NCBI RefSeq assembly: GCF_020194175.1
Contig: NZ_JADYVX010000008.1
Span: 186,001-250,000 of the forward strand
Reading direction: 5' to 3'
From: Bradyrhizobium sp. BRP22
Lineage (GTDB): Bacteria > Pseudomonadota > Alphaproteobacteria > Rhizobiales > Xanthobacteraceae
DNA length: 64,000 bases
Shown: positions 24,543 to 44,506 of the stretch, in pieces
Position numbering within the stretch: the first letter of the stretch is position 1
How the letters are laid out: each line of letters starts with the position of its first letter
Program-made: the position numbers and the translations under genes
Notes under the pieces: generated by a model
The model's input: the letters and a program-made list of their open reading frames with translations, nothing else
Told to the model about the DNA's origin: nothing
The model's database searches: none

Positions 24543-24575
24543 ACGGATCCGAACGACAACGGATGGGGAGGAAAG

Positions 24576-25868: not shown

Positions 25869-25901
25869 TGGGGGCGCACCGATCGCACGCTCAGACGTCG
25901 C

Positions 25902-26201
25902 GTGGCCGTCGTCGGGATTGGCGAGACAACGTATTATCGGCACGGGGCTTCGCCGGATGCCGAATTCAAGCTCGCGCTGAAGGCGATCCTGGCGGCCTGC
26001 GATGACGCCGGGCTCGATCCGCGCGACATCGACGGCTTCGCCTCCTACAGCGGCGATTAGGCCGGCAGCGTTCGCATGGTCGGCCACCTACTCGGTGATC
26101 CCCTGCAGACGGTCTCGATCGGAGCCGAGGTCGAGGGCGTGTTCGAGCACCATTCCGATTCCGATCCGCCATACTCGTTGCTGCACTGGCAGGCGGTCTA
26201 A
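25902..26201 (+). pseudogene. Thiolase-family (acetyl-CoA acetyltransferase-like) N-terminal remnant
   Basis: Reading from GTG 25902 gives VAVVGIGETTYYRHGASPD, then LALKAILAACDDAGLDPRDI and DGFASYSGD, the N-terminus of SCP-x-like thiolases, before a TAG at 26058. The same frame continues with a plausible next segment (GSVRMVGHLLGDPL) to a TAA at 26199 and then loses resemblance. About 300 residues, including the catalytic Cys and His regions, are absent. It lies 33 bp after the CoA transferase and was presumably once part of that operon. Confidence 0.7.
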
Positions 26202-26694: not shown

Positions 26695-26712
26695 GTTGAC
26701 TAGATAGTTAAC
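26695..26712. promoter_or_regulatory. Copy 1 of the 18-bp palindrome (GTTGACTAGATAGTTAAC)
   Basis: One of five copies of a GTTRACTANNTAGTYAAC dyad between 26.7 and 37.4 kb. It lies 153 bp upstream of the cupin start, the only gene it can serve. Likely operator for the TetR protein at 35909-36592. Confidence 0.7.
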
Positions 26713-26865
26713 TGGAAATAGGCTCTCAGTCAGCGCGCCGATAGGCATTTGCCTGCGACACGGCGCCAATCTGTGGTGAGGGGGCTTCGGAGTTTCGGGC
26801 ACGTTGAAGATTTCGCGCCCCTCAGGCCTCGCCTTCACCACAACCGAGGACAACAGGAGAACTGC

Positions 26866-27393
26866 ATGGGTACGGCAAGGCACGCTCGTCCAAAGGAGCT
26901 GGAAACGGCTTCACTAGAGCAGATCATGGATCGCTATGTCGCGCGTTTCGCGGACAGGCGCGCCGATTGGGCGGCGTTCGAGGACGCCAAGATCGAGGGA
27001 TTCAAGCGCGCGCAACATCGCTTCATCGGGGCCGGTGGTTCCGGCAAACACAACGATATCTCGTCGATTCCCGCGGGAAATTTCACTCTCTCGATCATGT
27101 TCGTGCCGCCCGGCCAGGGCAATGCCGCGCACACCCACGAGGTCGAGGAGGTTTTCTTCGTTCTGAGAGGCCATCTCGATGTCTTCGTGCAGGACGAGGA
27201 TGGCCGCAAGATCATGAAGCGATTGGGGCCCTGGGAATGCATTTCCTGCCCGGCTGGCGTTATTCACGGATATGAGAACAACAGCCTCGAGCCGGTCTAT
27301 TTCCAGGTGATGCTCGGCCGCGGCAAGCCCGAGACGATGGGCTATGCAGACGACGAACTCTACAAGCGCCGCGATAATCATTTGAAGGCCTGA
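26866..27393 (+). CDS. Cupin-domain protein
   Basis: A 175-residue single-cupin protein. The first motif is HTHEVEEVFFVLRGHLDVF near residue 87 and the second includes CPAGVIHGYENNS, giving potential metal ligands His, His, Glu and His. The N-terminal 50 residues are charged and helical. Function could be a small dioxygenase/isomerase or a sensor; it is not close enough to a named enzyme for me to choose. ATG 26866 has AGGAG at good spacing. It is flanked by an operator copy upstream and a rho-independent terminator downstream, so it is a single-gene unit of the regulon. Confidence 0.82.
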   Translation: MGTARHARPKELETASLEQIMDRYVARFADRRADWAAFEDAKIEGFKRAQHRFIGAGGSGKHNDISSIPAGNFTLSIMFVPPGQGNAAHTHEVEEVFFVLRGHLDVFVQDEDGRKIMKRLGPWECISCPAGVIHGYENNSLEPVYFQVMLGRGKPETMGYADDELYKRRDNHLKA

Positions 27394-27494
27394 GCAATCG
27401 CGCTTTGCTTTCGGTAATCGAAGCCTTCGGTCACACAGGGGGAAGGCTTCGTCTGCAATTCAGCTTCGGCAATGTCCTTAGGGCGGGGGTGGAG

Positions 27495-27536
27495 CGGGCC
27501 GGTGATCACACCAGGATCAAGCCGGCCCGTTTTTTT
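27495..27536 (+). terminator. Rho-independent terminator after the cupin gene
   Basis: CGGGCCGG (27495-27502) pairs with CCGGCCCG (27522-27529), extended by GATC/GATC with a small bulge, and is followed by seven T residues. It terminates plus-strand transcription and overlaps the last codons of the [19 protein letters not shown]-dehydrogenase-like gene. Confidence 0.85.
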
Positions 27537-28282
27537 ATCGCGTGTATCAAGCTGAATGGCGCAAGTACCGACGTCTTCGGATTGGACGGCAATGTGATCG
27601 ACCGGATCGTCGTCGATATCTCGCCGAATGCTCCACGCGCCATGAACGAGTGGGTGTTCCCGTCGGCTGTGGGATCGACGATCAGGCGGACCTTGGTCTT
27701 CTCAAAGCCGAGCCCCGCCAGGGCCAGCGCGGCGACCACATTGGCATTTTGCGGAAACCGCAGGGCAGCCATCCGCGCATCGCATTCGAGAAATGTCTGA
27801 GCCGTTGTGACCGAGGCGAGCGCAATCATGTTCTCCGCGGGCGTCCCTTTCCAGGCCGACGGAGCCTTGCGGCCGGAATATTCCACTGAATCGAGTCCAG
27901 CCTCACGCGCCGCGCTGAGCGCATCTATGCCGCCGAGCGCACCGCCCGGGATCAGCAATCGGCCGCCTGCATTGGCCGCGGCGCGCCGCAGTGTCTGCTC
28001 GAGCGCAGGGTCGGCGAGCGCTCCGACCGACGCGACAAGGAGGTCGGCCCCGCCGCGGATCACCGCTTCGCCGGCATCCCTGAGCGCTTGGTGCCCTGCA
28101 CATTCGACCACCAGCTCAGGTTTCTTCGAGAGCAGCGCTTCGATGCTGTCGACGAGCGGAGCAGCGCAATTCGCCGGCTGCGGAACCGAGAAGACCGCGC
28201 AGACCTCGATTGATGGATCAGCGTGCAAATGCTCGATGACGAAGCGTCCAATCGCTCCATAACCAATGACTGCGATTCTCAA
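27506..28282 (-). CDS. L-aspartate dehydrogenase-like (NadX family) oxidoreductase
   Basis: A 258-residue protein with an N-terminal Rossmann motif (MRIAVIGYGAIGRFVIEHL), the ELVVECAGHQALRD segment, the glycine-rich IPGGALGGIDALSAAR and the C-terminal DPTADGNTHSF containing the likely catalytic histidine. The family deaminates L-aspartate to oxaloacetate (or iminoaspartate) with NAD(P)+. No NadA/NadC gene is near, so a catabolic amine-dehydrogenase role is more likely than NAD synthesis. Divergent from the aldehyde dehydrogenase across the long palindrome at 28318-28347. Confidence 0.85.
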   Translation of the reverse strand: MRIAVIGYGAIGRFVIEHLHADPSIEVCAVFSVPQPANCAAPLVDSIEALLSKKPELVVECAGHQALRDAGEAVIRGGADLLVASVGALADPALEQTLRRAAANAGGRLLIPGGALGGIDALSAAREAGLDSVEYSGRKAPSAWKGTPAENMIALASVTTAQTFLECDARMAALRFPQNANVVAALALAGLGFEKTKVRLIVDPTADGNTHSFMARGAFGEISTTIRSITLPSNPKTSVLAPFSLIHAIKKRAGLILV

Positions 28283-28317
28283 GAGCTTACCAAGTTACTG
28301 CGGGCAACATTCGACCA

Positions 28318-28347
28318 CATCATGTTGACTGTATAGTCAACATGATG
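28318..28347. promoter_or_regulatory. Copy 2 of the regulon palindrome, extended to 30 bp
   Basis: Core GTTGACTGTATAGTCAAC at 28324-28341; the dyad extends to perfect 13-bp arms (CATCATGTTGACT and its complement) around a GTAT centre. It sits in the 115-bp gap between the divergent aspartate-dehydrogenase-like and aldehyde dehydrogenase genes and could control both. Confidence 0.75.
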
Positions 28348-28397
28348 TCAAGTGTGTTGATCGCGCGTGATGGCTCGTGAGACAGGACAGAGAGAAA

Positions 28398-29819
28398 ATG
28401 ACAACGAATGACGTCGAAGGGCCGACGGCGGCGGGTGCGAAGGAGACGGAGTTTTCCATTCGAAACCCCTGGACCGGCCGCATCGCCTTCGTGGTTCGTT
28501 CGACCGGCGCAGATCAGATCGAGCACTACGTGCAGGCCGCCAAGGCGGCGTTCCGGCAATTCGTGAAGACGCCGGCCCATCAGCGCGCTTCCTGGCTCAA
28601 CGGCGCCGCGAGCGCGATGGAAAAGGAGACGCCGCAACTCGTCGAAATGACGATTGAACATATCGGCAAGCCGCGCAAGGCGGCCGAGATGGAGGTCCGC
28701 CGCAGCATCGCCTTCATAAGGGCTTGCGCGATGCACCTGCACGGACTTGGCGGAGAGGTTGTGCCGATCGACATGGTCCCGGCCGGCGCGGGTTTATTCG
28801 GCTTCACGCGCCGTGTGCCATATGGTGTCGTTGCGGCGGTGACGCCGTTCAACGCGCCGTCCAATCTGCTGGTGCAGAAGCTCGCGCCGGCATTGATCAC
28901 GGGAAATGCGGTCATCATCAAGCCCTGCCTGGAGGGCTCTCGGATCGCGCAGTCGATCGCCGCGGCTTTCGGCGCAGGCGGCGTGCCCGAGGGCCTCGTT
29001 CAAGTCGTCACCGGCGACCGTCAGGAGGCGTTGGACCTTGCCGCGCATCCGGATGTCGACGTGGTCACGCTGACCGGCGGGACGGCCGCGGGTGACGCAC
29101 TGGCGCGCGCGGCGGGTGCCAAGCGGTTCATCGGAGAGCTAGGCGGAAATTCGCCGAATATCGTCGCCGCCGACGCCAATATAGACGATGCGGTGAAGCG
29201 CATCGTCCCGTCCTCGTTCGAGGCCAGCGGCCAGCAATGCATCTCCACGCAGCGGATCATCGTCGAAGCGCCGGTGTTCGACGAATTTCTGACGCGTTTC
29301 ATCGAAGCAGCGAAGCGGCTCAAGGTCGGTGACCCGGCATTGGCCGATACGGACCTTGGTCCTGTGGTCTCCGTCCGCGCCGCCGATCGGATCAGGGCGA
29401 TGATCGAGGACGCCGGCTCGCGGGGCTGTCGGGTGGTGACGTGCGGTGATACGAACGGTTGCGTCATTCCTCCGACGATTGTGATCGACCCTCCGCCGGG
29501 TACGCGCCTGATCCGCGAGGAGGTTTTCGGGCCCGTCGTGGTGGTGATGCGGGCCAAGGACATCGATGACGCGATACGTATCGCGAACGACTGCGAGTTC
29601 GGCCTGCAGGGATCCTGCTTCACCGCCAGCCTGGCGACTGCGATGCGCATGTCGGAAGAGATCCGCGCCGGTTCGCTCTGGATCAACGAGGCGAGCCGGT
29701 TCCGGCTCGACAATTATCCCTTCGGCGGCGTCGGCCGCTCGGGCGTTGGCCGCGAAGGGATCCCTTACGCGTTCGAGGAATACACCCAGCCGAAATTCAC
29801 CGGCATCCGCCTTCCCTGA
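28398..29819 (+). CDS. NAD(P)-dependent aldehyde dehydrogenase
   Basis: A 473-residue enzyme of normal ALDH length. Visible are VTPFNAPSNLLVQKLAPAL, the coenzyme loop TLTGGTAAGDALARAAG, general base Glu in FIGELGGNSPN, catalytic Cys in ASGQQCISTQR, and REEVFGPVVVVM plus the closing NYPFGGVGRSGVGREG. It should oxidise an aldehyde intermediate to the acid. The ATG at 28398 follows AGAGA, 50 bp downstream of the palindrome, so it is well placed for repression. Confidence 0.93.
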   Translation: MTTNDVEGPTAAGAKETEFSIRNPWTGRIAFVVRSTGADQIEHYVQAAKAAFRQFVKTPAHQRASWLNGAASAMEKETPQLVEMTIEHIGKPRKAAEMEVRRSIAFIRACAMHLHGLGGEVVPIDMVPAGAGLFGFTRRVPYGVVAAVTPFNAPSNLLVQKLAPALITGNAVIIKPCLEGSRIAQSIAAAFGAGGVPEGLVQVVTGDRQEALDLAAHPDVDVVTLTGGTAAGDALARAAGAKRFIGELGGNSPNIVAADANIDDAVKRIVPSSFEASGQQCISTQRIIVEAPVFDEFLTRFIEAAKRLKVGDPALADTDLGPVVSVRAADRIRAMIEDAGSRGCRVVTCGDTNGCVIPPTIVIDPPPGTRLIREEVFGPVVVVMRAKDIDDAIRIANDCEFGLQGSCFTASLATAMRMSEEIRAGSLWINEASRFRLDNYPFGGVGRSGVGREGIPYAFEEYTQPKFTGIRLP

Positions 29820-29837
29820 GCGCCCGTCAGAGCCGAT

Positions 29838-30755
29838 TCAGGAGCGGCGTGTCTCGGCCATGAACGCGAGGCAGGCACGGCCGAGAACGTCCTCGGCCGT
29901 GTTGAAATGCGCGACGATCGAAGTGTGGTTGTGGCCCTTCAGCCAGGCAAAGGGCGGCGCGCGGCCCTTCGCAGCGGCGAGACGATGGGCGAGCTCGAAG
30001 CAATAGACGTCGATCAGCGGATTCTCGAACTCGGAGCAGGCGACAAATGTCGGCGGGCTCTGTTTGTCGATGTGGGAGACGGGGGATACGTCGTCGTAGA
30101 TCGAGACATCAGCGCCATAATATTCGGCGACCCGCTTGGCATTGGGGTTGTCCGCCCGGGCATCGGCGCGGACCCGGCCGCTGACGATCAGAGCTCCCGC
30201 AAGCCCGTGTCCGCCGGGCGGCTGGTGCCGCTTGTCGTAGGCATAGCTGCCGACATGCGCGCCGCCCGCGGAGTGTCCCATCAGAAAGATTCGATCGGGA
30301 TCGACATTCAGGCCGGCGGCGTTGTCGCGCATCCATTGCACGACCGCTGCAATATCGCGCGTGGCTTCCGGATAGCGCGCCTCGGGCGCAAGGCGATAGC
30401 CGACATTGATCCCGACCACACCGTGCCTTGCGAAATAATACAGGACGTTGGCGTAGATCTCTGCGCTGCGATGGCGGCTGCCCTCCGTGAAGGCGCCGCC
30501 ATGGACGAAGATCAGCCCGGGTCGCGGCGATGGATCTGCCGCGGCAGGATGGAAAATATCGAAGGCCTGCCGCTCGTGCGGTCCATAGTGAATATCGGCT
30601 TCAACGCGGATTCCGTCTTTGGGCGAGAACTTCAGCACTTCGCTGAATTTCTCGATCATCAGCCGAACATGGCCCTTGGTGTCCGTGGCCCATCTCGGGC
30701 CGATCTCCGCCATCAGCGCTCGGAGATCCGCAGGAATCTCGGGAAGCTCTGTCAT
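29838..30755 (-). CDS. Alpha/beta hydrolase of the HSL/arylformamidase type
   Basis: A 305-residue esterase-like protein. The HSL-type oxyanion motif FVHGGAFTEG is near residue 95, nucleophile GHSAGGAHVGS near residue 170, and the C-terminal KGHNHTSIV contains the catalytic histidine. Size and motifs resemble the BD-FAE/kynurenine formamidase group as well as general carboxylesterases. It is 48 bp downstream of the amidohydrolase gene on the same strand, in the unit controlled by palindrome copy 3. Convergent end is 18 bp from the aldehyde dehydrogenase stop. Confidence 0.85.
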   Translation of the reverse strand: MTELPEIPADLRALMAEIGPRWATDTKGHVRLMIEKFSEVLKFSPKDGIRVEADIHYGPHERQAFDIFHPAAADPSPRPGLIFVHGGAFTEGSRHRSAEIYANVLYYFARHGVVGINVGYRLAPEARYPEATRDIAAVVQWMRDNAAGLNVDPDRIFLMGHSAGGAHVGSYAYDKRHQPPGGHGLAGALIVSGRVRADARADNPNAKRVAEYYGADVSIYDDVSPVSHIDKQSPPTFVACSEFENPLIDVYCFELAHRLAAAKGRAPPFAWLKGHNHTSIVAHFNTAEDVLGRACLAFMAETRRS

Positions 30756-30803
30756 GGACCGGTCTCGCACTGGTTCATATGCGTCTCCGCGCAGAAAGGC
30801 CGT

Positions 30804-31757
30804 TCACAGCTTGAGCAATCGAGCGGCGTTGTCGCCTACCAATTTGCGCTTGTCGTCGGGCGAGAGCTGAAGTTGCTTGATCCAGTCCGTGCCGTCCTGG
30901 TTCACCACATAGGGATAGTCGACGGCGAACATGATCCGATCGATGCCGAGTTCCAGCATGCTGCAGATCAACGCCGGCGTCGAGAAATTGCCGCTGGTTG
31001 TGATGTGGAAGTGTTCGCAGAACTGCTTGCGGAAGCTCAGGCTCTGCTGGCCGGGACGGGACAGCGCCTGATCGATGCGCCAGAGCAGGAACGGCAAGGT
31101 CTCGCCGAGATGCCCGAGGATGATCTGGAGCCTCGGGTATCTTTCCAGCGCGCGACTTAGGATCAGCCTTATCGCGGCCGTTGCCGTCTCAACCGTGAAG
31201 CCCCAGGCTGGCCGGATCACGGTCGGGAAATCGCGGGCATAGTCGTCGTAATAGTGCCTGGTGACTTCCGCGTGCGGCACCGACGGATGCAGATAGATCG
31301 GCACGTCGAGCTTCTCTGCCACTTCGAAGATCGGCCAGAAGCGCTTGTCATCGATAAACAGGCCGTTGGTGAGGCCGTGAATCATCGCGCCCTTGAACTT
31401 CAGGTCCTTGATGCATCGCTCAAGTTCCCGCGCGGCCTGATCGGGGACAGGCGTCGGAAGCGCTGCGAATGCGGCAAATCGGTCGGGATGTCTCGCGCAG
31501 GCCTCGGCGAGACGGTCATTGACCCGCTGCGTCAGGTCGACCGCGATGTCGGGCGACAATTTCTGCGCTGCTGGCGCGCCATGAGACAGCACCTGAACGT
31601 CGATTCCCGCTTCGTCCATCGCGCGAAGCCTGATGTCTCCGATTTCGGTCAGAAGGTCGGAGATCGGAGATTTGTTTTCGCCCGCCGGAAAAGCTCCCGC
31701 CATCTCGGGGTCCCAATAATGTTCCTCGATCGCGATGACGCGCGTATTGTCGAACAT
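30804..31757 (-). CDS. Amidohydrolase-family decarboxylase (gamma-resorcylate decarboxylase-like)
   Basis: A 317-residue protein of the amidohydrolase 2 family. Instead of the usual DxHxH it begins with IAIEEHYW, the E-x-H form I associate with 2,6-dihydroxybenzoate decarboxylases; other ligands are in IYLHPSVPH and IILGHLGETLPF, and the closing Asp in IMFAVDYPY. It probably decarboxylates a hydroxylated aromatic or heteroaromatic acid. It heads a minus-strand pair with the alpha/beta hydrolase and is 95 bp downstream of palindrome copy 3. Confidence 0.85.
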   Translation of the reverse strand: MFDNTRVIAIEEHYWDPEMAGAFPAGENKSPISDLLTEIGDIRLRAMDEAGIDVQVLSHGAPAAQKLSPDIAVDLTQRVNDRLAEACARHPDRFAAFAALPTPVPDQAARELERCIKDLKFKGAMIHGLTNGLFIDDKRFWPIFEVAEKLDVPIYLHPSVPHAEVTRHYYDDYARDFPTVIRPAWGFTVETATAAIRLILSRALERYPRLQIILGHLGETLPFLLWRIDQALSRPGQQSLSFRKQFCEHFHITTSGNFSTPALICSMLELGIDRIMFAVDYPYVVNQDGTDWIKQLQLSPDDKRKLVGDNAARLLKL

Positions 31758-31851
31758 GATGAGTGACCTCGTCTTTCTTATCTGTCGGTCGGCTCTGCAG
31801 GGCGCCGCCGGTACGGCGCGGCAAGCGGTATCGATCCAAACCTACTCACTT

Positions 31852-31869
31852 GTTGACTATCTAGTCAAC
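31852..31869. promoter_or_regulatory. Copy 3 of the regulon palindrome (GTTGACTATCTAGTCAAC)
   Basis: A perfect dyad with flanking T/A extending it to 20 bp, in the 245-bp gap between the amidohydrolase (minus) and the molybdenum hydroxylase operon (plus). Nothing else is recognised in this gap. Confidence 0.75.
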
Positions 31870-32002
31870 ATTGGACATAGTTCGATACTGTCGCTGGTCG
31901 CGGCCGGTTGCGCATGCGCTCCGATCGCCTTGACCACGGCGTCCGGTTTCGTAGCGCGATGATGACCGTAAGTCGATACGTCGCGCGTTGGTGGGAGGCA
32001 GG

Positions 32003-32860
32003 ATGAAGCCGCCGATCTTTGAATATGCGTCGCCCTCGACGGTTGCCGAGGCAGTTGCCCTGCTGGCTTCGAAAGATGGAAACGCAAAGGTGATATCCGG
32101 CGGTCAGAGCCTGATGCCCATGCTCGCGTTCCGCCTGGCGACGCCCGAGCTGCTGGTCGATCTCAAGCACCTGAAGAATCTCGATGCGATCAGCATCGGC
32201 GAGGACGGTGTCCGTCTCGGAGCCAAGGTGCGCTGGTGCGATATCGAAAGTGATGCGCGGCTCGCCGTCAGCCACCCACTGCTCGCTGAAGCGATCAAGC
32301 ATGTGGCGCACTACCAGATCCGTAACCGTGGAACGGTGGGCGGTTCCGTGGCGCATGCGGATCCATCGGCCGAGATGCCGGGCATCGCGATGACCTGCGG
32401 AGCGCGGATGACGATCGTCGGCAGCGCCGGTGCGCGGATCGAGGCGGCCGCCGATTTCTTCACCGGCCCGTTGCAGACCAGCTTGCAGCCGGACGAAATC
32501 CTGACCGAGGTACATCTGCCTCCCTGGCCGGCCGCACGACGGTGGGCTTTCCTGGAGTTTGCGCGCCGGAAGGGCGACTTCGCGATGGCGGGTATTGCCC
32601 TCCATTACGACCTGGATGGTGCCGGCCGCATCGTCGATGCGCATGTGGGCGCGATCGGGGTCGCGGACCGGCCAATCCGGCTGGCGGCGGTGGAGGCGAT
32701 GCTGAATGGCAACCGGCTGGACGACAGGCTGATTGCGGCCGCTTCGGCAAAGGCGCGGCAATCCGTCGATCCTCCATCCGATATTCACGCGCCCGGCGCT
32801 TATCGTGCAGCACTGGTCGCAACACTGCTCGCGCGCGGGCTGAAGAAGTCCGCCGTCTAG
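32003..32860 (+). CDS. Molybdenum hydroxylase FAD-binding medium subunit (CoxM family)
   Basis: A 285-residue protein of the CoxM/FAD-binding family. Diagnostic FAD motifs are ISGGQSLMPMLAFR near residue 34 and NRGTVGGSVAHADPSAE near residue 108. It carries electrons from the [2Fe-2S] subunit to the acceptor. First gene of a medium-small-large operon; ATG 32003 has GGGAGG upstream, and the small subunit starts 8 bp after its stop. Confidence 0.93.
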   Translation: MKPPIFEYASPSTVAEAVALLASKDGNAKVISGGQSLMPMLAFRLATPELLVDLKHLKNLDAISIGEDGVRLGAKVRWCDIESDARLAVSHPLLAEAIKHVAHYQIRNRGTVGGSVAHADPSAEMPGIAMTCGARMTIVGSAGARIEAAADFFTGPLQTSLQPDEILTEVHLPPWPAARRWAFLEFARRKGDFAMAGIALHYDLDGAGRIVDAHVGAIGVADRPIRLAAVEAMLNGNRLDDRLIAAASAKARQSVDPPSDIHAPGAYRAALVATLLARGLKKSAV

Positions 32861-32868
32861 GAGTTTTC

Positions 32869-33342
32869 ATGGACATCAAGTTCGATCTCAACGGCCAATC
32901 GGTCTCTGCCGATGTTGAGCCGCGTACGACGCTGGCGGACTGCATCCGCAACAATTTTGGTCAGACCGGAACTCATCTGGCCTGCGAGCACGGCGTCTGC
33001 GGTGCGTGCACGGTGTTGGTCAACGGCGAGGCGGTCCGTTCCTGTCTCATGCTCGCCGTTCAGGTGCAGGGTGATCAGGTCGTGACGGTCGAAGGCCTTT
33101 CCGGCGACGAACTGACGCCGCTGCAGGCTGCGTTCCGGAAGCATCACGCCCTGCAATGCGGCTTCTGCACTCCGGGCTTCATCACCACGGCGCACGCGCT
33201 GCTCAGCCATGAGCCGGGGGCCGACGAGGAGCGGATACGCGATGTTCTCTCCGGTAATCTGTGCCGTTGCACAGGATACGTTCCGATCGTCGAAGCCGTG
33301 CTTGAAGCGCGGGAGTCATACCGGGGCTCGGGGAGCAAGTGA
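32869..33342 (+). CDS. Molybdenum hydroxylase [2Fe-2S] small subunit (CoxS family)
   Basis: A 157-residue protein with both cluster-binding regions: CEHGVCGACTVLVNG (plant-type cluster) near residue 43 and CGFCTPGF with CRCTGY near residues 100-140 (helical cluster). It links the Mo site in the large subunit to the FAD subunit. Its stop overlaps the large subunit's start (TGATG). Confidence 0.95.
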   Translation: MDIKFDLNGQSVSADVEPRTTLADCIRNNFGQTGTHLACEHGVCGACTVLVNGEAVRSCLMLAVQVQGDQVVTVEGLSGDELTPLQAAFRKHHALQCGFCTPGFITTAHALLSHEPGADEERIRDVLSGNLCRCTGYVPIVEAVLEARESYRGSGSK

Positions 33343-35633
33343 TGAAGAGCTTCAATTCCTATATTGGGCGCCCTATGGAGCGGGTCGAAGACCTGCGCAT
33401 GGTGCGGGGAAGGGGGACTTACGTCGCCGATGTCAATCGGCCGAACCAGCTTTACGCCGTGATCCTGCGCAGCTCGGTCGCGCACGGGATCATCAGGTCG
33501 ATCGACAGTAGCGAAGCGCTGGCGCTGCCGGGCGTACGTCGCGTCCTGACCGCCAAGGATCTCGGAAGCAAGGTCCCTGTCATTCCGTTGCGCCTGCAGC
33601 CGTTGCCGCAGCTCGAGCCGTTCCATCAACCGGTCCTGGCCGATGAGAAGGTGCGCTATGTCGGCGAACCCGTTGCGCTCGTCATCGCGGACAGCGCGGC
33701 GATCGCCGAGGATGCCCTCGAGCGTATCGTGCTCGATATCGAACCATTGCCGGCGGTCGCCAATCGCTCGCAGGCCGAAGCAAAGCGGGCGGTGCTGTTC
33801 GAGGAGCACGGGTCCAATGTCGCCATCACGTGGAGTGCGTTCCGCGGCAATGCGGACGAAGCGTTCAAGACGGCGGACTACGTTCGTCGCGAAACGTTCA
33901 AGGTGCAGCGGCACGCCGCAATGTTCATGGAACCTCGAGGCTTTGTCGCCGAATGGGACGAGGCGGCCGGCAAACTGACGGTGTGGGGAGCCGCCAAGAC
34001 CGCCTGGCACAATCGCCGCACCCTCGCCGCGCAGCTCGGACTTGCGCTCGAAGCGGTCGATCTGATCGAGGTCGATGTCGGCGGCGGCTTCGGCTCGCGC
34101 GGCGAATTCTATCCGGAAGACTATCTGATCCCTGCCGCGGCAAGGATTGTCGGCAGGCCGGTGAAATGGACCGAGGATCGTCGCGAACACATCATGAGCG
34201 CCAATCACGCGCGCGATGTCGAATGCGATGTCGAATTCGCGGTTTCACGCGATGGCCGCTTCATCGGGCTTCGCGGTCAGATATGGGCCGATATTGGCGC
34301 ATATATCCGCACCAACGGCTCCGTCGGCCCCCGCAACGTCGCGCAGTTCATGTCGGGGCCGTATTGCATCGAGCACATCGACCTCAAGAGCTCGATGCTG
34401 ACCACCAACAAGACGCCTTGCGGGACCTATCGCGGGCCGGGCCGCTACGAGACCGACTTCATCCGCGAGCGCATGATCGATCTCGCCGCGCAGGATTTGA
34501 AGATCGACCGGGTCGAACTGCGGCGTCGCAATCTCGTGGCCGATGCGCAGATGCCGTATCCGCTCGCCTCGATCACGCCCTATGACAGTTCGACGGAACT
34601 CGACAGCGGCGATTATCACGCGGTCTTCGATCGCTGCCTGAAGGAGTTCGGCTGGGACGAAAGAACCAGGCTTCGCGGCCAATTGATCGACGGCTACTAT
34701 CACGGCCTCGCGATCGGCAGTTTCATCGAAGGCGGCGCGGCGGGTCCCAAGGAGGAGGCGCGCCTGGTCCTGGAGACCGATGGGGCGCTCTCGGTCTACA
34801 TCGGATCGTCATCGGTCGGGCAGGGACTGGAGACGATCATGGCGCAGATCGCCGCCGATGCCATGGAGATGTCTTACGACAAGATCACGATCCGTCACGG
34901 GTCTACCAGCTATGTCAAGGACGGCTATGGCGCCTATCACTCGCGATCGACGGTGATGGGCGGCTCGGCGATCCTGCTGGCCGCCGACAAGTTGAAGGAT
35001 CTGATCCGTAAGACGGCTGGAGCGCGCCTCGGCTGCAAGGCGGAGCAGGTCGTGATCGACGGCGAACAGGCCAGCTTTGGCGGCGAGCATCTTGCGTTTG
35101 CCGGGCTGTCAGGCGTGCCGCTCGAGGTCGAAGCGGAATTCTTCAACAAGAAATACACCTGGGCCTACGGGACACAGGCTGCGCATGTGGCTGTCGATCC
35201 CGGCACGGGCCACGTCAAGGTCATTGATTTCATCTCGGTCGAGGACGTCGGCCGCATGATCAATCCGTTGACATTGCATGGTCAGGCGATCGGCTCGATC
35301 GTGCAGGGTCTCGGCGGCGCATTCCTGGAACATCTGGTCTATGACGATGAAGGCCAGTTGCTGACGGGCTCGTTTGCCGACTACCTGATGCCGACGGCGT
35401 CGGATTTTCCCAATATCCGTTCCATCACCGTTGAACTGAAACCCTGTCCGAACAACCCGCTTGGCGCGAAGGGAGCAGGGGAGGGCGGCCTCATTCCGGT
35501 CGGAGGCGTCATGGCCAATGCCGTGGCCGATGCCTTGTCGCATCTCAACGTCCAGCCAATGGAGCTGCCGCTTTCGCCGCCACGGCTCTGGCAACTGGTT
35601 GAACAGGCGGAGACTGCTCGTTCCGCAGACTAA
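33342..35633 (+). CDS. Molybdenum hydroxylase molybdopterin-binding large subunit (CoxL/xanthine oxidase family)
   Basis: A 763-residue catalytic subunit. Motifs include IGRPMERVEDLRMVRGRG at the N-terminus, VGGGFGSRGEFYPED, TYRGPGRYETDF where form I CO dehydrogenases have AYRCSFR, and the catalytic glutamate in GAKGAGEGGLIPVGG. The absence of AYRCSFR argues against true CO dehydrogenase; hydroxylation of an N-heteroaromatic ring or an aldehyde is more likely. GTG at 33339 is an alternative start by one codon. Confidence 0.93.
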   Translation: MKSFNSYIGRPMERVEDLRMVRGRGTYVADVNRPNQLYAVILRSSVAHGIIRSIDSSEALALPGVRRVLTAKDLGSKVPVIPLRLQPLPQLEPFHQPVLADEKVRYVGEPVALVIADSAAIAEDALERIVLDIEPLPAVANRSQAEAKRAVLFEEHGSNVAITWSAFRGNADEAFKTADYVRRETFKVQRHAAMFMEPRGFVAEWDEAAGKLTVWGAAKTAWHNRRTLAAQLGLALEAVDLIEVDVGGGFGSRGEFYPEDYLIPAAARIVGRPVKWTEDRREHIMSANHARDVECDVEFAVSRDGRFIGLRGQIWADIGAYIRTNGSVGPRNVAQFMSGPYCIEHIDLKSSMLTTNKTPCGTYRGPGRYETDFIRERMIDLAAQDLKIDRVELRRRNLVADAQMPYPLASITPYDSSTELDSGDYHAVFDRCLKEFGWDERTRLRGQLIDGYYHGLAIGSFIEGGAAGPKEEARLVLETDGALSVYIGSSSVGQGLETIMAQIAADAMEMSYDKITIRHGSTSYVKDGYGAYHSRSTVMGGSAILLAADKLKDLIRKTAGARLGCKAEQVVIDGEQASFGGEHLAFAGLSGVPLEVEAEFFNKKYTWAYGTQAAHVAVDPGTGHVKVIDFISVEDVGRMINPLTLHGQAIGSIVQGLGGAFLEHLVYDDEGQLLTGSFADYLMPTASDFPNIRSITVELKPCPNNPLGAKGAGEGGLIPVGGVMANAVADALSHLNVQPMELPLSPPRLWQLVEQAETARSAD

Positions 35634-35653
35634 CGCGTGAGCCGGCCGGCAAT

Positions 35654-35667
35654 TTGCGTTAACGCAA
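35654..35667. promoter_or_regulatory. Perfect 14-bp palindrome TTGCGTTAACGCAA
   Basis: Located 20 bp after the large-subunit stop and about 240 bp before the TetR gene. It contains GTTAAC but does not fit the regulon consensus. It may be an operator for another regulator or a weak hairpin; no further element was recognised in the surrounding gap. Confidence 0.35.
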
Positions 35668-35908
35668 GGACTGGAGAGCTTTCCGAGAAGATCATGCCCA
35701 AGAACTGAAAGGCTCGATGATGACTCAACCGATTCCGTCGCACTTGACCATTTTCAGTTTGATTTTCCGGAGCGGTTGGGCTTCTTCTCGGACTGAAGCG
35801 AGGGGAGCTGCAGGTCTGCGTGGGTGACCAGACGGCGTGTTCGCCGAACGGCACTCGCAGATCCGGTTTGGGGCTTCGCTCTCGCTCTGTTGATGAAGGG
35901 AGCGCGTC

Positions 35909-36592
35909 TTGGCGCGTCGTAGCAGCGATCCGGCTCGCGTTCGCGAGAAGATACTTAAGCTGGCCATGGAAGAATTTGGCCGCATTGGCTTCGAGGGCGC
36001 GCGCGTTGATCGCATCGCCGAGCGCTGCCATCTCAGCAAGAATATGCTGTATTACTACTTCAAGTCCAAGGAAGGACTGTTCGTCGCCGCGCTCGAGCGG
36101 ATGTATGAGATTTTCCGAGAACAGCAACGTGATTTGTCGGTGCGCGCAAGCGATCCGATCCTGGCCCTGCAACAACTCATCGCGCACACGTTCACGGCGC
36201 TGGAGAACAATCCGAACGCCATTCGTCTGTTGAACGAAGAGAACAAGCACCGCGGTAAGTACATTCGCAAATCGAAACGGATCAGGGATCTCTACAATCC
36301 GCTGGTCGAGACGCTCAGCTTTATCCTGGAGCGAGGTCGCAGGGACGGCGTCTTCCGCGCCGGACTTGATCCGGCGGTCGTTTATCTGACGCTGTCATCG
36401 CTGTGCTATCACTATCTCTCCAACCAGTACACGCTGGAGATCGCGCTCAACAAGGAACTGAGTTCAGCGATCGCGCGCAAGCAGTGGCTTCAGCATGTCA
36501 CCGACCTTGTGCTGCAATATTGCGTATCCGATCCCGCCAAGGTGCTGGATCGGAAGTCAAATGCGAAAAACCTGGCGGCAGCCGCGAATTGA
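35909..36592 (+). CDS. TetR/AcrR family regulator, candidate repressor of the palindrome regulon
   Basis: A 227-residue protein from a TTG start. The HTH is near residues 12-55 (REKILKLAMEEFGRIGFEG, VDRIAERCHLSKNMLYYYF). The C-terminal domain with FTALENNPNAIRLLNEENKH and YCHYLSNQY-like helices resembles the TetR_C_33/RutR-like group. It is central to five copies of the 18-bp palindrome and is the only regulator in that span, which makes it the leading candidate for binding them; this is inference from position. No palindrome copy lies immediately before its own start. Confidence 0.88.
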   Translation: MARRSSDPARVREKILKLAMEEFGRIGFEGARVDRIAERCHLSKNMLYYYFKSKEGLFVAALERMYEIFREQQRDLSVRASDPILALQQLIAHTFTALENNPNAIRLLNEENKHRGKYIRKSKRIRDLYNPLVETLSFILERGRRDGVFRAGLDPAVVYLTLSSLCYHYLSNQYTLEIALNKELSSAIARKQWLQHVTDLVLQYCVSDPAKVLDRKSNAKNLAAAAN

Positions 36593-36604
36593 GCTAACGG
36601 GACT

Positions 36605-36998
36605 CTAAATCGCGGGTTGGTTTCGGGCGATCATGGGCTCCCCGATCACGTCGTCTTCGGATCGGCTTCCGACCGGTTCCCATGTGACCATCCACAGCGA
36701 TAGCAGGCCGGCGATCGGCACCAGCGCGAGCGCGAGCATCAGGTTGGACAGACCGTTTTTCGCGAGCAACGGTGGGAAGAAGAACGAGCCGATAATGGTG
36801 CGTTCCAAGCTGGGATGGTGCGAAATCGAATTCGGCACGCAGCCCGGGAACACCGATCCCGAGGCTGGCAAAATCATAGGCGTCGACGAACACGCCGCCT
36901 AGCGCGATCAGAACCACGCCGAGTCCGGACCGGGTCATCGGCTGACTCCCGACGAAATCCGCGCCATCGTCCTTCGATCGGATGACAATCTCGCGCAT
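36605..36998 (-). pseudogene. MFS transporter remnant with large internal deletion and frameshift
   Basis: The first frame gives an MFS N-terminus (MTRSGLGVVLIALGGVFVDA, DFASLGIGVPGLRAEF). Near 36800 the sequence shifts frame and jumps to the last membrane segments (TIIGSFFFPPLLAKNGLSN, LMLALALVPIAGLLSLWMV) and tail, ending at 36605. Roughly 300 residues are missing. The layout suggests an aromatic-acid/sugar-acid symporter. Operator copy 4 still lies 41 bp upstream of the start, so the gene was once part of the regulon. Confidence 0.75.
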
Positions 36999-37039
36999 CG
37001 TCGACCCCTCGGCCCGCGTTTCGAGTAAACTAAGTATCA

Positions 37040-37057
37040 GTTAACCGAATAGTCAAC
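37040..37057. promoter_or_regulatory. Copy 4 of the regulon palindrome (GTTAACCGAATAGTCAAC)
   Basis: The weakest copy: the outer GTTAAC/GTCAAC match the consensus but the inner CTA of the left arm is CCG. It is placed to control the decayed MFS gene on the minus strand, and the reduced match may reflect relaxed selection. Confidence 0.6.
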
Positions 37058-37322
37058 GTGGTGGTTATCTTGCGCTTGTCCCCGCAGCTTGACGGCTGCG
37101 GTGCAAAAGGGCGCCATCGTCCTAATAAGTAGGCAATTCGAGCGCCGAGTCTCGATCGATGCGCAGTTGGCGCTCTTTGGACGCAAGCTTCCTCTCCCGA
37201 GCCGCAGGAAAGGCCCTCAATATTGCGTAGCAGCGAGGCAGCGAAGCAGACTGTTCCGCGTCTCGGTCGGGCCGTCAGCGGAAGGCAATGAAATTGTCGC
37301 TAGACAAGCTCTAAGAAGCTCA

Positions 37323-37340
37323 GTTAACTAGATAGTCAAC
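37323..37340. promoter_or_regulatory. Copy 5 of the regulon palindrome (GTTAACTAGATAGTCAAC)
   Basis: Near-perfect copy 17 bp before a short leader ORF and 79 bp before the ABC ATPase start. Mirror-image match to copy 1 (same GA centre). Confidence 0.75.
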
Positions 37341-37357
37341 AAGGGAGGACGGCGCAT

Positions 37358-37408
37358 ATGGCGCCGTGGCGCAATTCTTGCTCTCGCGGGACGTTGTCAG
37401 CCACTTGA
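37358..37408 (+). CDS. Possible 16-codon leader peptide before the ABC operon
   Basis: ATG 37358 is preceded by GGGAGG with 9-bp spacing and encodes MAPWRNSCSRGTLSAT before TGA at 37406. It has a better ribosome site than the downstream ATPase start and ends 11 bp before it, so translational coupling or attenuation is conceivable. It may also simply mark a vestigial start; confidence is low. Confidence 0.3.
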   Translation: MAPWRNSCSRGTLSAT

Positions 37409-37419
37409 TTGAGAGAACA

Positions 37420-38271
37420 ATGGTCGCTTTGAAGGTTCAGCCAGCGGGCGGCGCTTATGGCGCTCCGATTTCCGCTTCGGACTCGACGAAATCGGCGATG
37501 ATTCGCATCGCAGGCCTGGAGAAGCGGTTCAAGACCCGCTCCGGCGAGACCGTCAACGCGCTGACGAACGTAAATCTCGACATTCACGAAAACGAGTTCA
37601 TCTCGGTTGTGGGACCGAGCGGCTGCGGCAAAACAACGCTGCTCCGAATCCTCGCCGGTCTCGAAAGCAGGTCGTCGGGAGCCATCCAATGCGATGGTGC
37701 TGAGATTACTGGTCCGCGTCCGGATGTGGGCGTCGTCTTTCAGCAGGCGACCTTGTTGCCGTGGAACACGGTGCTGGCCAATGTGCTGCTGCCGGCCCAT
37801 TTGAGGAATGACAAGTCCGAGGCGACGGTGAAGCGCGCCGAAGGACTGCTTGCGTTCATGGGGCTGAAGGACTTCGCCCAGAAATACCCGTTCGAGTTGT
37901 CCGGCGGCATGCAGCAGCGCGTTGCGATCTGCCGCGCACTGATGCGCGAGCCGCGCATCCTGTTGATGGATGAGCCGTTCGGGGCGCTCGATGCGATGAC
38001 GCGCGAGGCCATGAACATGGAGCTCATGCGGGTGTGGTCCGAGGAGCGGAAGACCGTGATCTTCATTACCCACAGCATTCCGGAAGCCGTCCTGCTGGGA
38101 GATCGCGTGGTGGTCATGTCGCCGCGGCCGGGTCGCATCTCCGAAATCATCGATGTCGATGTCGGCCGTCCGCGTTCGCTGCAGACCATGGCGACGCCGC
38201 GGTTCGGCGAACTCTGCGACCACATCCGCACCATCTTCGGCGCGCAATCGGTCACGGCGACATCGCTATGA
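37420..38271 (+). CDS. ABC transporter ATPase, nitrate/sulfonate/taurine type
   Basis: A 283-residue NBD: Walker A GPSGCGKTT near residue 64, Q-loop VFQQATLLPW, signature LSGGMQQRVAICRAL, Walker B ILLMDEPFGALDAMTRE and H-loop THSIPEAV. The LLPW and PFGALD sequences typify the SsuB/TauB/NrtD group. ATG 37420 follows GAGAGA; a GTG at 37366 is a weaker alternative. Its stop overlaps the permease start (ATGA). Confidence 0.93.
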   Translation: MVALKVQPAGGAYGAPISASDSTKSAMIRIAGLEKRFKTRSGETVNALTNVNLDIHENEFISVVGPSGCGKTTLLRILAGLESRSSGAIQCDGAEITGPRPDVGVVFQQATLLPWNTVLANVLLPAHLRNDKSEATVKRAEGLLAFMGLKDFAQKYPFELSGGMQQRVAICRALMREPRILLMDEPFGALDAMTREAMNMELMRVWSEERKTVIFITHSIPEAVLLGDRVVVMSPRPGRISEIIDVDVGRPRSLQTMATPRFGELCDHIRTIFGAQSVTATSL

Positions 38272-39059
38272 GTGACGTTTCAAAGCCGGCGGGATCGCAT
38301 TTGCTGCAGTCGATCGCGGTGGCCGCGGTCATGATTGCGGTGTGGGAGGGCACCTGCAGAGGGTTCGACGTATCGTCGATCGTGCTGCCGACCCCGAGCT
38401 CGATCGTGGTTCGGCTTTACGCCCTGGTGTCGAGCGGGGTGATCTGGCCGCATCTGTGGGCGACGCTGGCCGAGGTGTTGAGCGGCTTCGTGCTCGGCGG
38501 AATCGCCGGCCTGGTCATCGGGGCAACCATCTCGCTGGTCCCGGTGTTCGAACGGCTGGTGTATCCGTATCTCGTGGCATTGCAGACCTTGCCGAAGGTC
38601 GCCATCGCGCCGCTCTTCATCATCTGGTTCGGTTACGGTCTGACCTCCAAGATCGTGATCACGGCGCTGGTCTGCTTCTTTCCGGTACTGGTGAGCGTGA
38701 TCGCCGGCTTCCACTCAACGGACAAGGATCAGCTCGATATGATGAGGGCGTTTGGCGCCACCAAATGGCAGACCTTGATGCGCCTGCGCATTCCGTCCGC
38801 GCTGGTCCTGATTTTCGCGGGGCTCGAGATTGCCGCCGTGCTCGCGGTCATTGGTGCAATCGTCGGTGAATTCGTCGGCGCTCAGGTCGGTCTCGGCTAT
38901 CTCGTGGTGACCCTTAATTTCGGAATGGATGTCGCAGGCGTGTTCGCGGTCCTGATCGTACTGTCGGCCATTGGCCTGGCGATGCACGGCCTGATGCGGT
39001 ACGCGGCGCGTCGCTCCATTTTCTGGATCCGGCGCAGCGATGCGCCAATGATGCATTGA
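38268..39059 (+). CDS. ABC transporter permease, nitrate/sulfonate/taurine type
   Basis: A 263-residue inner-membrane protein with about six hydrophobic segments and the BPD_transp_1 EAA-type loop (DMMRAFGATKWQTLMRLRIP). The segment LQTLPKVAIAPLFIIWFGYG is characteristic of SsuC/TauC permeases. It pairs with the overlapping ATPase and the binding protein downstream. Confidence 0.93.
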   Translation: MSDVSKPAGSHLLQSIAVAAVMIAVWEGTCRGFDVSSIVLPTPSSIVVRLYALVSSGVIWPHLWATLAEVLSGFVLGGIAGLVIGATISLVPVFERLVYPYLVALQTLPKVAIAPLFIIWFGYGLTSKIVITALVCFFPVLVSVIAGFHSTDKDQLDMMRAFGATKWQTLMRLRIPSALVLIFAGLEIAAVLAVIGAIVGEFVGAQVGLGYLVVTLNFGMDVAGVFAVLIVLSAIGLAMHGLMRYAARRSIFWIRRSDAPMMH

Positions 39060-39076
39060 ACCTGTCGGAGATGAGA

Positions 39077-40171
39077 ATGTCTAGCGTAGCTTGGGGACGC
39101 CGGCTGTTGTTGGCTGCCGCGGTGGTGATAGCGGCTGTCGGCTGTGCGGAGAGCGCGAATGCGCTTGAGAAGGTGAGACTGCTGATTCCGGTTCGCAATA
39201 TCGACGAGGCGTTTTCGCCATTCGTCGTTGCCAGGGAGAAGGGGTATTTCGCGGCCGAGGGCTACGATGTCACGTTGATCGCAGTCGGCGGCTCGAACGA
39301 ATCGGCGATCCAGGTCTCGGCCGGCAATGCTGAAGTCGGTGCCGCATCGCCAGGCGAAGCACTGGTTGGCATTCAGTCCGGAAAGCTCGACATCCGCTAT
39401 TTCTACGGTCTCTATTATTCCAACATCTGGTCGATCGCCGTGCTGCCGGACAGCCCGATCAAGACGCTTGCTGAGCTGAAGGGCAAGAGGCTTGGTGTCC
39501 AGTCGATGGGCAGCGCCGGCACGACGTTTGGACGTGCGTTCGCGCAAGCCGCGGGCCTGGATCCCGAGAAGGATATCTCCTTCCTGCCGATCGGTGTCGG
39601 GGCGCAGGCGGTGACGTCGGTTCGCCAGAAGCTGGTGGATGGTGTGATCTACTGGGATGCGGCGCTGGCGAAATTCAAGTTCTCCGGGCTCGATCTTCGC
39701 CAGGTTCCGGTGCCAGAGAATCTGCGCTCGCTGCCGGACGTTGCATTGCTTGCCCGCAACGATACGATCGGCAAGAATCCAAAAATGCTCACGGGTATCG
39801 CGCGGGCGGTCGCCAAGGGATATGATTATTCGATGGCCAATCCCGAAGCCGCGGTATTGATCACCTGGAAGGCCTATCCTGAAGCCAAATCGAAGAACCC
39901 CGACGCAACTGCCGCGCTCAAGGAAGGCGTGGTCGTCAATCAGGCCCGGCTCGGCATCTGGAACACGCCGAAGATCGGCGACAAGCATGGACTATTGATC
40001 GATGCCGACTGGAATCGCCTGATTCAATTTTTTGTCGATCAGAAGGTGCTGCCTGCCGCCGTTCCCGTCGATCGGGTCATCACGGGCAAGTTCATCGAGG
40101 ACGTTAACGCCTACGATCGCGCCAGTATCATCTCTGATGCCAAGAAAGAGGATATCTCGAAGCTGCAATGA
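39077..40171 (+). CDS. ABC transporter solute-binding protein, NMT1/SsuA-like
   Basis: A 364-residue protein with a signal peptide (RRLLLAAAVVIAAVGCAES) whose VGC suggests possible lipoprotein processing, then a NMT1/THI5-like fold: FSPFVVAREKGYFAAEGYDV near residue 45 and MGSAGTTFGRAFAQAAGLDP. Family members bind sulfonates, pyrimidines or aromatic acids such as phthalate; the ligand here is unknown but should be the inducing substrate of the regulon. ATG 39077 has GGAG upstream; an in-frame ATG at 39071 is an alternative. Confidence 0.9.
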   Translation: MSSVAWGRRLLLAAAVVIAAVGCAESANALEKVRLLIPVRNIDEAFSPFVVAREKGYFAAEGYDVTLIAVGGSNESAIQVSAGNAEVGAASPGEALVGIQSGKLDIRYFYGLYYSNIWSIAVLPDSPIKTLAELKGKRLGVQSMGSAGTTFGRAFAQAAGLDPEKDISFLPIGVGAQAVTSVRQKLVDGVIYWDAALAKFKFSGLDLRQVPVPENLRSLPDVALLARNDTIGKNPKMLTGIARAVAKGYDYSMANPEAAVLITWKAYPEAKSKNPDATAALKEGVVVNQARLGIWNTPKIGDKHGLLIDADWNRLIQFFVDQKVLPAAVPVDRVITGKFIEDVNAYDRASIISDAKKEDISKLQ

Positions 40172-40217: not shown

Positions 40218-40404
40218 CTAAGCCGCCGGGCGAGCGGTCACGTTCTCGGTCCACTTCGTGATGTGCTTGGCGACGGCGACCAGTTCGCCGCCGCGGCTCG
40301 TCGATCTCGCTGATCACGTAGCTCACCGTGATGGTGTCGCCGAAGAACACCGGCTTGAGGAAGCGCACGCCGTCATAGCCGAGCGAAACGGGCGTCGAGT
40401 CCAT
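40218..40404 (-). pseudogene. MaoC-like hydratase fragment
   Basis: The frame from 40404 reads MDSTPVSLGYDGVRFLKPVF, GDTITVSYVISEIDEPRR, a recognisable internal piece of MaoC/hotdog dehydratases. A frame change then gives ELVAVAKHITKWTENVTARP and the stop at 40218, the family's C-terminus. The middle and the N-terminal part are missing. Confidence 0.7.
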
Positions 40405-40412
40405 GCCTTTCC

Positions 40413-40574
40413 CACAAGGCCAGCATCCTGCTGGTCGAGCATAAGGTCGACCTTGTTCTCGATTTGGCTGACCGCGCCTACATCATGGTCAATGGACAGA
40501 TGGCCTATGCCGGCGACAGCCGCGCGTTGCGCGACGACATGGAAACGCAGACGAAGGTCCTGGGCGTGGGATGA
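40413..40574 (+). pseudogene. C-terminal fragment of a LivF-type ABC ATPase
   Basis: An open frame without start encodes SILLVEHKVDLVLDLADRAY, IMVNGQMAYAGDS and ends ETQTKVLGVG, the C-terminal 50 residues of branched-chain amino acid transporter ATPases, including the region after the H-loop. The rest of the gene is gone. It abuts the MaoC fragment back to back, indicating a deletion or recombination junction near 40405-40412. Confidence 0.7.
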
Positions 40575-40969: not shown

Positions 40970-42744
<1,775 letters not shown>

Positions 42745-42774
42745 GTCGAATAGTTCAGTGCCAAAGGAGTTAGG

Positions 42775-42798
42775 TGGCCCGGCGTCACTGCCGGGCCA
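42775..42798 (+). terminator. Terminator-like hairpin after groEL
   Basis: Perfect 9-bp stem TGGCCCGGC / GCCGGGCCA with a 6-nt loop, 30 bp after the groEL stop; no strong T-tract follows. Confidence 0.6.
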
Positions 42799-44493: not shown

Positions 44494-44506
44494 AGGCGCA
44501 GCGGTT

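Follow-up and report, generated by a model that had tools for sequence, protein, structure and literature searches.

What does a group of catabolic genes in Bradyrhizobium sp. BRP22 degrade, and do its members serve one pathway? The stretch of DNA analysed, here called the window, comprises 64,000 nucleotides (contig NZ_JADYVX010000008.1, positions 186,001 to 250,000), and the module in question occupies positions 26695-40171 of it, its left edge being an operator at 26695. The module encodes a cupin, an aspartate dehydrogenase, an aldehyde dehydrogenase (ALDH), an alpha/beta hydrolase, an amidohydrolase, a three-subunit molybdenum (Mo) hydroxylase of the CoxMSL type, a TetR regulator and an ATP-binding cassette (ABC) importer. 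Every named gene has an open frame and fits its stated superfamily (Pfam, NCBIfam). The parts are of known kinds, and the set belongs to the group of aromatic or heteroaromatic acid catabolic clusters. The module is very probably one co-inherited regulon, which therefore probably handles one compound.

A shared operator and its probable regulator

Five palindromes of 18 bp (O1 to O5) precede the transcription units of the module. When at most 3 mismatches are allowed, the pattern GTTGACTANATAGTCAAC has 9 strand-matches in the window; they fall at 5 places, every one inside 26695-37340, and 100 dinucleotide shuffles of the window yield none. When at most 2 mismatches are allowed, GTTRACTANNTAGTYAAC occurs at 6 places across the 8.36-Mb genome. 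Those with 0-1 mismatch number four, every one inside the module; of the 2-mismatch places, one belongs to the module (37040, O4) and the other to a different contig (C35). The reversed pattern, used as a control, gives 7 places in the genome, and 2-mismatch sites by themselves are therefore at chance level and carry no weight. O4 is nonetheless kept at 17 of 18 bases in a sister genome of the same genus (G417). In that genome each of the five operators differs at one of its 18 bases at most, whereas the ungapped 40-base flanks agree at 11 to 32 of 40. The shared motif from which the preliminary description had argued for a single compound is thus borne out, with five sites in the module and the four best sites of the genome among them. 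Promoter and terminator scans gave a signal no higher than in shuffled sequence.

Loci carrying relatives of the cupin offer a comparison for the regulator. From 104 relatives the best 80 were kept, giving 78 loci, many of which end early. A TetR relative is encoded in 30 of the 78. A matrix built from the window sites, with a threshold of 11 bits, served to score the 200 bp ahead of each cupin, two loci with too little upstream sequence being excluded. An operator was found in 20/30 loci bearing TetR versus 1/46 lacking it and, at 17 bits, in 17/30 versus 0/46; TetR and operator are therefore linked by inheritance. For background, whole loci lacking TetR (642 kb) contained 6 sites and shuffled sequence (1.64 Mb) contained 25. 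The cupin loci are mutually related (L165 and L166 share one contig), and no p value is claimed for the link. The TetR proteins of the ten TetR-bearing loci without a site are 36-45% identical to that of the window; among the 20 with a site, seven are at 39-47% and the others at 62% or more. The TetR protein would be the one that binds O1 to O5, presumably as a repressor and not an activator, as is assumed from its family.

Recurrence of the gene set

An aspartate dehydrogenase matching at E <= 1e-35 is present in 11 of 265 genomes of the genus (BRP22 included) and reaches at least 80% identity in only two others. Scattering of the genes with no co-occurrence had been given in the preliminary description as grounds for giving up its reading, and the genomes present another picture. 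In G417 the module is complete, its proteins being 89-97% identical and all five operators present; G559 has part of it, with fragments of coxL and ALDH close to a contig end. Within reach of the respective loci, a metagenome-assembled genome of the Xanthobacteraceae (L101) has the gene order of the window, and two Rhodopseudomonas loci (L102, L103) have the same order except for an inverted cupin. The set is present in rearranged form in G415, G438 and G463.

Gene presence over the 78 cupin loci was determined by tblastn at E 1e-8, the ATPase and coxL matches including remote paralogues. The counts were 55 for coxL, 48 for coxM, 45 for coxS, 29 for the ABC ATPase, 23 for ALDH, 21 for the permease, 16 for aspartate dehydrogenase (any of three queries), 14 for the hydrolase, and 11 each for the amidohydrolase and the binding protein. 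An ALDH relative accompanies the aspartate dehydrogenase in 14 of its 16 loci. Thirty-two loci have at least 9 kb on each side of the cupin, with coxL in 27, TetR in 20, ATPase in 15, ALDH in 14, aspartate dehydrogenase in 13, hydrolase in 9, binding protein in 8 and amidohydrolase in 7. When the 20 of these that bear TetR are compared with the 12 that do not, ALDH is found in 13 versus 1, aspartate dehydrogenase in 12 versus 1, ATPase in 14 versus 1, binding protein in 8 versus 0, amidohydrolase in 7 versus 0, hydrolase in 8 versus 1 (Fisher p 0.10) and coxL in 19 versus 8 (p 0.05); these p values are uncorrected and the loci are related. As judged from these sequences, the gene set is co-inherited, with cupin and Mo hydroxylase as its widest core and the remainder as one of several outfits.

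Proposed pathway

The TetR protein would hold the regulon off until it is induced by the substrate or an early product. The ABC importer, together with a major facilitator superfamily (MFS) permease that is now broken in BRP22, would supply the cell with a carboxylate of an N-heteroaromatic ring, most likely of pyridine. CoxMSL would hydroxylate the ring next to the nitrogen, and the amidohydrolase would remove the carboxyl group from the resulting ortho-hydroxy acid. The ring would then be opened by a dioxygenase, most likely the cupin with its metal site. ALDH would oxidise the semialdehyde and the alpha/beta hydrolase would split a bond of acyl or ester type. The ring nitrogen would be handled by the aspartate dehydrogenase, moving between iminosuccinate/aspartate on one side and oxaloacetate plus ammonia on the other.

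This scheme assigns a role to every regulon gene. An N-heteroaromatic acid is, on balance, the probable class of substrate. The whole sequence of import, hydroxylation, decarboxylation, ring opening by the cupin, ALDH, hydrolase and nitrogen steps falls somewhat short of probable and is put forward tentatively; the order of the steps, like the reactions given to cupin and hydrolase, is conjectural. Hydroxylation, decarboxylation and the nitrogen step rest on named families, whereas ring opening by the cupin is the weakest step.

Proposed hydroxylation and decarboxylation

The solved chain nearest to the CoxL-type subunit is 6-hydroxypseudooxynicotine dehydrogenase (7dqx, 468 bits), followed by a CoxL (362) and quinoline oxidoreductase (355). 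The subunit stays below both CO dehydrogenase cut-offs (TIGR02416, 403 versus 991.15 bits; NF040766, 551.7 versus 950). We take 7dqx to be encoded by the kdh genes and to hydroxylate a pyridine ring; the module is without recognised partners from the nicotine pathway. These matches agree with the earlier suggestion that a CoxMSL enzyme not of the CO type may hydroxylate an N-heteroaromatic ring. Eight other Mo-hydroxylase loci of the BRP22 genome were compared with that of the module and are at most 37% identical. In all, the genome gives 32 matches to the Mo-hydroxylase domain MoCoBD_1, a few of which are two parts of one gene.

The amidohydrolase matches gamma-resorcylate decarboxylase at 242 bits, 5-carboxyvanillate decarboxylase at 184, 2,3-dihydroxybenzoate decarboxylase at 169 and 2-amino-3-carboxymuconate semialdehyde (ACMS) decarboxylase at 57-91. 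Its nearest solved relatives are gamma-resorcylate decarboxylases (2dvt, 3s4t), and in the alignment with 2dvt the E-x-H, HP, GHxGE and D elements, whose Glu, His and Asp residues presumably have metal-binding and catalytic roles, are all retained. The enzyme fits a decarboxylase of the ortho-hydroxy-acid type, in keeping with the role proposed at the outset from its E-x-H motif. The enzymes that we take to be the partners of gamma-resorcylate degradation are not among the module genes.

The likeness to a benzenoid enzyme also suits another reading, in which the substrate is of the hydroxybenzoate or aminophenol type, the target oxidised by the Mo enzyme is an aldehyde or side group, and the role of the aspartate dehydrogenase is confined to recycling nitrogen. 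A further argument for it comes from a protein taken to resemble 4,5-dihydroxyphthalate decarboxylase, encoded in 30 of the 78 cupin loci (e.g., L136:11231-12220, L111, L131), in one of them together with the amidohydrolase. This protein may be a binding protein, because Pfam shows only weak NMT1-type matches for it. The nearest solved relative of CoxL, presumably a pyridine hydroxylase, argues against a benzenoid substrate, as does the aspartate dehydrogenase gene, which sits behind operator O2 and recurs with those of ALDH and the hydrolase. A benzenoid substrate is rather unlikely.

A rule by which the amidohydrolase and the 4,5-dihydroxyphthalate-decarboxylase-like protein exclude each other was considered and rejected. 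Among the 39 loci that have 5 kb to either side, the counts were 0/15 versus 7/24; with 1/30 co-occurring in all 78, and with uncorrected counts from related loci, this is just a hint.

Aspartate dehydrogenase, ALDH and hydrolase

The aspartate dehydrogenase scores above two NCBIfam cut-offs, those of the subfamily model NF009828 (275.2 versus 177 bits) and the equivalog model NF009827 (237.2 versus 226). It retains a His aligned with a His of 2dc1 that is presumably catalytic. The preliminary description had called it an NADX-like amine dehydrogenase; the family stands, and the name is better given as aspartate dehydrogenase in view of these two cut-offs, though six of the eight NCBIfam models for this enzyme, including TIGR03855 NadX, are not reached.

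The ALDH reaches no cut-off among the 25 of 45 NCBIfam matches listed, and scores 295.8 of the 693.25 bits required by the hydroxymuconic semialdehyde dehydrogenase model. For the hydrolase, the closest solved relative among the matches listed is esterase 4zrs (142 bits, E 2.4e-40), the next being at 57 bits. No kynurenine formamidase is named among the best 60 of 212 hydrolase matches listed, and the arylformamidase-like character first given to this protein is not upheld.

The enzyme kinds recall the route of 3-hydroxyanthranilate, with the cupin as 3,4-dioxygenase, the amidohydrolase as ACMS decarboxylase and the ALDH as aminomuconate semialdehyde dehydrogenase. ACMS decarboxylase does belong to the superfamily of the amidohydrolase, and two aminomuconate semialdehyde dehydrogenases are among the ALDH matches. 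The scores given above for ACMS decarboxylase against gamma-resorcylate decarboxylase and for the ALDH model count against such a route, 3-hydroxyanthranilate dioxygenase matches the cupin at E 0.5 only, and CoxMSL would be left without a role. We regard this route as most improbable.

Another reading weighed was a route through 2,5-dihydroxypyridine, as a variant of the pathway for picolinate (pic) or nicotinate (nic). In the pic cluster a Mo hydroxylase presumably acts first, a kind of enzyme that the module shares. Also alike, as reported for Alcaligenes faecalis JQ135 and Bordetella, are an amidohydrolase-family decarboxylase and a deformylase-type hydrolase (PMC10142695). In contrast, no monooxygenase, 2,5-dihydroxypyridine dioxygenase, isochorismatase-type amidase, maleamate amidase or maleate isomerase is recognised among the module genes by Pfam and NCBIfam, the rest of the genome not having been searched, and the module adds the cupin, ALDH, aspartate dehydrogenase and TetR regulon. 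An isochorismatase-family hydrolase does occur in some sister loci, but its relatives in BRP22 (G000), G417 and G463 are at best 36% identical. Such a variant is very unlikely, and the direct tie to picolinate or kynurenine routes that was suggested earlier finds no support, the other enzymes of those routes being absent from the module.

In other sister loci the genes for cupin, CoxMSL and amidohydrolase are joined by one for a dihydroorotate-dehydrogenase-like enzyme, a RutB-like isochorismatase or a CocE-like hydrolase. That the module requires the first two of these was rejected, their relatives being at most 36% identical in the same three genomes. Both enzymes seem not to be needed in BRP22, because its genome has no close homologue. 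The same genome brings together, at L090:11545-19685, another CoxMSL, a glyoxalase-family open reading frame (ORF), an aspartate dehydrogenase of 37% identity and an isochorismatase-family ORF.

The cupin and its possible part in ring opening

The four putative metal ligands of the cupin (H89, H91, E95, H134) are invariant in 60 of 60 sequences of the window type. The AlphaFold model of the protein is moderate (mean pLDDT 72). Its fold matches include isomerases, decarboxylases and dioxygenases, and among those tied are bovine 3-hydroxyanthranilate dioxygenase (Z 9.5, rank 49) and 5-nitrosalicylate dioxygenase of Bradyrhizobium (Foldseek rank 36). A tblastn search of plasmids with the cupin returned 37 records, 0 of which cover 80% of the query.

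Related gene sets carry other oxygenases. Three genomes of the same genus (G437, G438, G588) have a LigB-type dioxygenase beside an aspartate dehydrogenase, a hydrolase, an ALDH and another CoxMSL (Pfam was run on two of the three). The 4-hydroxypyridine (kpi) and mimosine (pyd) systems are reported to open a pyridinediol with a dioxygenase and a hydrolase: the LigB-type Pfam family is the one to which PydA, the annotated 3,4-dihydroxypyridine dioxygenase of a mimosine-degrading organism, is assigned, and KpiB, an alpha/beta hydrolase, acts after ring opening in 4-hydroxypyridine degradation (PMC7356986). BRP22 has the cupin, and its genome no LigB-type homologue at E 0.001. The cupin occurs without a LigB-type gene in BRP22, G417, G559 and G463, and the LigB-type gene without the cupin in G588. 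G415 has the cupin plus LigB relatives of only 29-30%, and G586 no LigB match and a cupin match of only 30%. Displacement of the cupin by the LigB-type dioxygenase as a rule was rejected, as G437 and G438 carry both.

Plasmid clusters of Caballeronia, Novosphingobium, Acinetobacter and Klebsiella combine a cupin (32-41% identical over the full alignment) and an aspartate dehydrogenase (43-46%, four plasmid loci compared) with an ALDH and an alpha/beta hydrolase, as in the module. Unlike the module, they have a Rieske-type oxygenase, short-chain dehydrogenases/reductases (SDRs), a vicinal oxygen chelate (VOC) or extradiol-type protein and a thiamine diphosphate (ThDP) enzyme in place of CoxMSL and the amidohydrolase. 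Arg replaces H134 in 7 of 7 cupins from such clusters (six plasmid loci and L082 of the genus Bradyrhizobium). The Rieske-type cluster (L074, L077, L078, L079, L187, L188) is constant at about 13 genes across distant bacteria and bears no pathway name in the records. These clusters may be read as a possible kynurenate route, for which no supporting paper was found.

Several of these observations, with some from the preceding sections, speak against the proposed scheme. The fold matches of the cupin, made with a moderate model, are generic, with many cupins tied and no family prominent, and its sequence matches to solved cupins are weak, as with 3-hydroxyanthranilate dioxygenase. The related cupins with Arg for H134 stand in clusters that still keep an aspartate dehydrogenase. 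Cupin and LigB-type enzyme are not simple replacements of each other, because G437 and G438 hold both. Ring opening usually requires a diol, and the module is without a separate monooxygenase to make one. The decarboxylase is found in only 11 of the 78 cupin loci, the aspartate dehydrogenase in 16 and the hydrolase in 14 (many loci ending early), and the cupin probably also serves other pathways. The six missed aspartate dehydrogenase models belong to the same side of the balance. Finally, LumY of riboflavin catabolism, an annotated cupin, is a dienedioate hydratase and no oxygenase, according to PMC12746152.

The cupin could accordingly be a hydratase, isomerase or decarboxylase that acts after ring opening, the ring being opened by an enzyme encoded elsewhere or by hydrolysis after hydroxylation. 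This reading draws on LumY, on the span of the fold matches and on the Arg-bearing cupins, which in the annotated plasmid clusters stand beside a VOC-family protein. Against it, the window-type cupin retains its four ligands throughout, and no other recognised ring-opening enzyme is found in the regulon by Pfam and NCBIfam. It is a substantial possibility, if not a probable one.

With ring opening by the cupin, as proposed here, cupin and aspartate dehydrogenase might even form a shared lower pathway, from a hydroxylated 2-carboxypyridine to iminosuccinate/aspartate, in which the nitrogen leaves as an amino acid and which differing upper pathways feed. In BRP22 the upper route would consist of CoxMSL and the decarboxylase; in the plasmid clusters it would be made up of the Rieske oxygenase, the VOC protein and the ThDP enzyme, with a likeness to the old kynurenate route, which yields aspartate. 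Such a shared pathway is speculative and, on present evidence, unlikely.

Layout of the module and its surroundings

The features of the module are collected in Table 1. The ORF at 36594-36998 gives no match when its product is searched in Pfam. Its first part equals the start of an intact 472-aa ORF of G417, which likewise lies between TetR and the importer and is MFS_1 by Pfam (E 5.9e-31); the ORF is for this reason taken as a truncated MFS gene. This gene, with O4 in front, is probably a regulon member that was lost in the BRP22 strain. The solute-binding protein has weak matches to 3qsl, 4nmy and 3ix1, which point to no substrate.

Table 1. Genes and operators of the module, with positions in the window.
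Feature	Position	Strand	Remarks
Operator O1	26695..26712		GTTGACTAGATAGTTAAC; 154 bp ahead of cupin gene; 17/18 identical in G417
Cupin, 175 aa	26866..27393	+	Cupin_2 E 2.9e-12; putative metal ligands H89, H91, E95, H134
Aspartate dehydrogenase, 258 aa	27506..28282	-	Asp_DH_C E 2.9e-27
Operator O2	28324..28341		Between divergent aspartate dehydrogenase and ALDH genes
ALDH, 473 aa	28398..29819	+	Pfam, NCBIfam
Alpha/beta hydrolase, HSL/BD-FAE type, 305 aa	29838..30755	-	HGG and GHSAGG motifs
Amidohydrolase-2, gamma-resorcylate-decarboxylase-like, 317 aa	30804..31757	-	PF04909 E 4.3e-45; 2dvt E 1.2e-70
Operator O3	31852..31869		Between divergent amidohydrolase and coxM genes
CoxM-type FAD subunit	32003..32860	+	NCBIfam
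CoxS-type iron-sulfur subunit	32869..33342	+	NCBIfam
CoxL-type molybdopterin subunit, 763 aa	33342..35633	+	NCBIfam; nearest solved chain 7dqx
TetR regulator (TetR_C_29)	35909..36592	+	Pfam; candidate binder of O1-O5
Truncated MFS permease gene, 134 aa	36594..36998	-	Intact 472-aa MFS_1 homologue in G417
Operator O4	37040..37057		42 bp ahead of start of MFS remnant
Operator O5	37323..37340		26 bp ahead of ABC transporter genes
ABC importer ATPase	37366..38271	+	Pfam
ABC importer permease	38262..39059	+	Pfam
Solute-binding protein, NMT1/THI5-like	39056..40171	+	Pfam, NCBIfam

The module is flanked at 25890-26200 and about 40290-40440 by remnants that, from a reading of their translations, resemble the N-terminus of a thiolase, interrupted by stops, and an ABC ATPase for branched-chain amino acids. 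Upstream, 17692-25868 is without the operator and carries separate catabolic genes for an acyl-CoA dehydrogenase, two class III CoA-transferases, a Rieske oxygenase with a LigXa-type C-terminus and a Fer2 protein. Downstream, 41062-52177 holds a GroEL-type gene, a second NMT1-type importer and the histidine-type degradation genes for a HutF-type amidohydrolase, an aromatic amino acid lyase and urocanase.

Significance

A search of the open literature, which leaves out most subscription journals, gave no paper recognised as describing this gene combination or regulon. If the proposed pathway is right, the module would be a compact and experimentally easy set, with one regulator, one operator and one importer, for a ring-acid pathway in Bradyrhizobium and Rhodopseudomonas. 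Aspartate dehydrogenase is usually filed under NAD biosynthesis, and the pathway would place it in aromatic catabolism. Should the shared lower pathway be true as well, the metal-site cupin would represent a novel type of enzyme for opening pyridine rings. In 55 of the 78 loci the cupin has a Mo hydroxylase close by, and one solved case would therefore aid the annotation of many.

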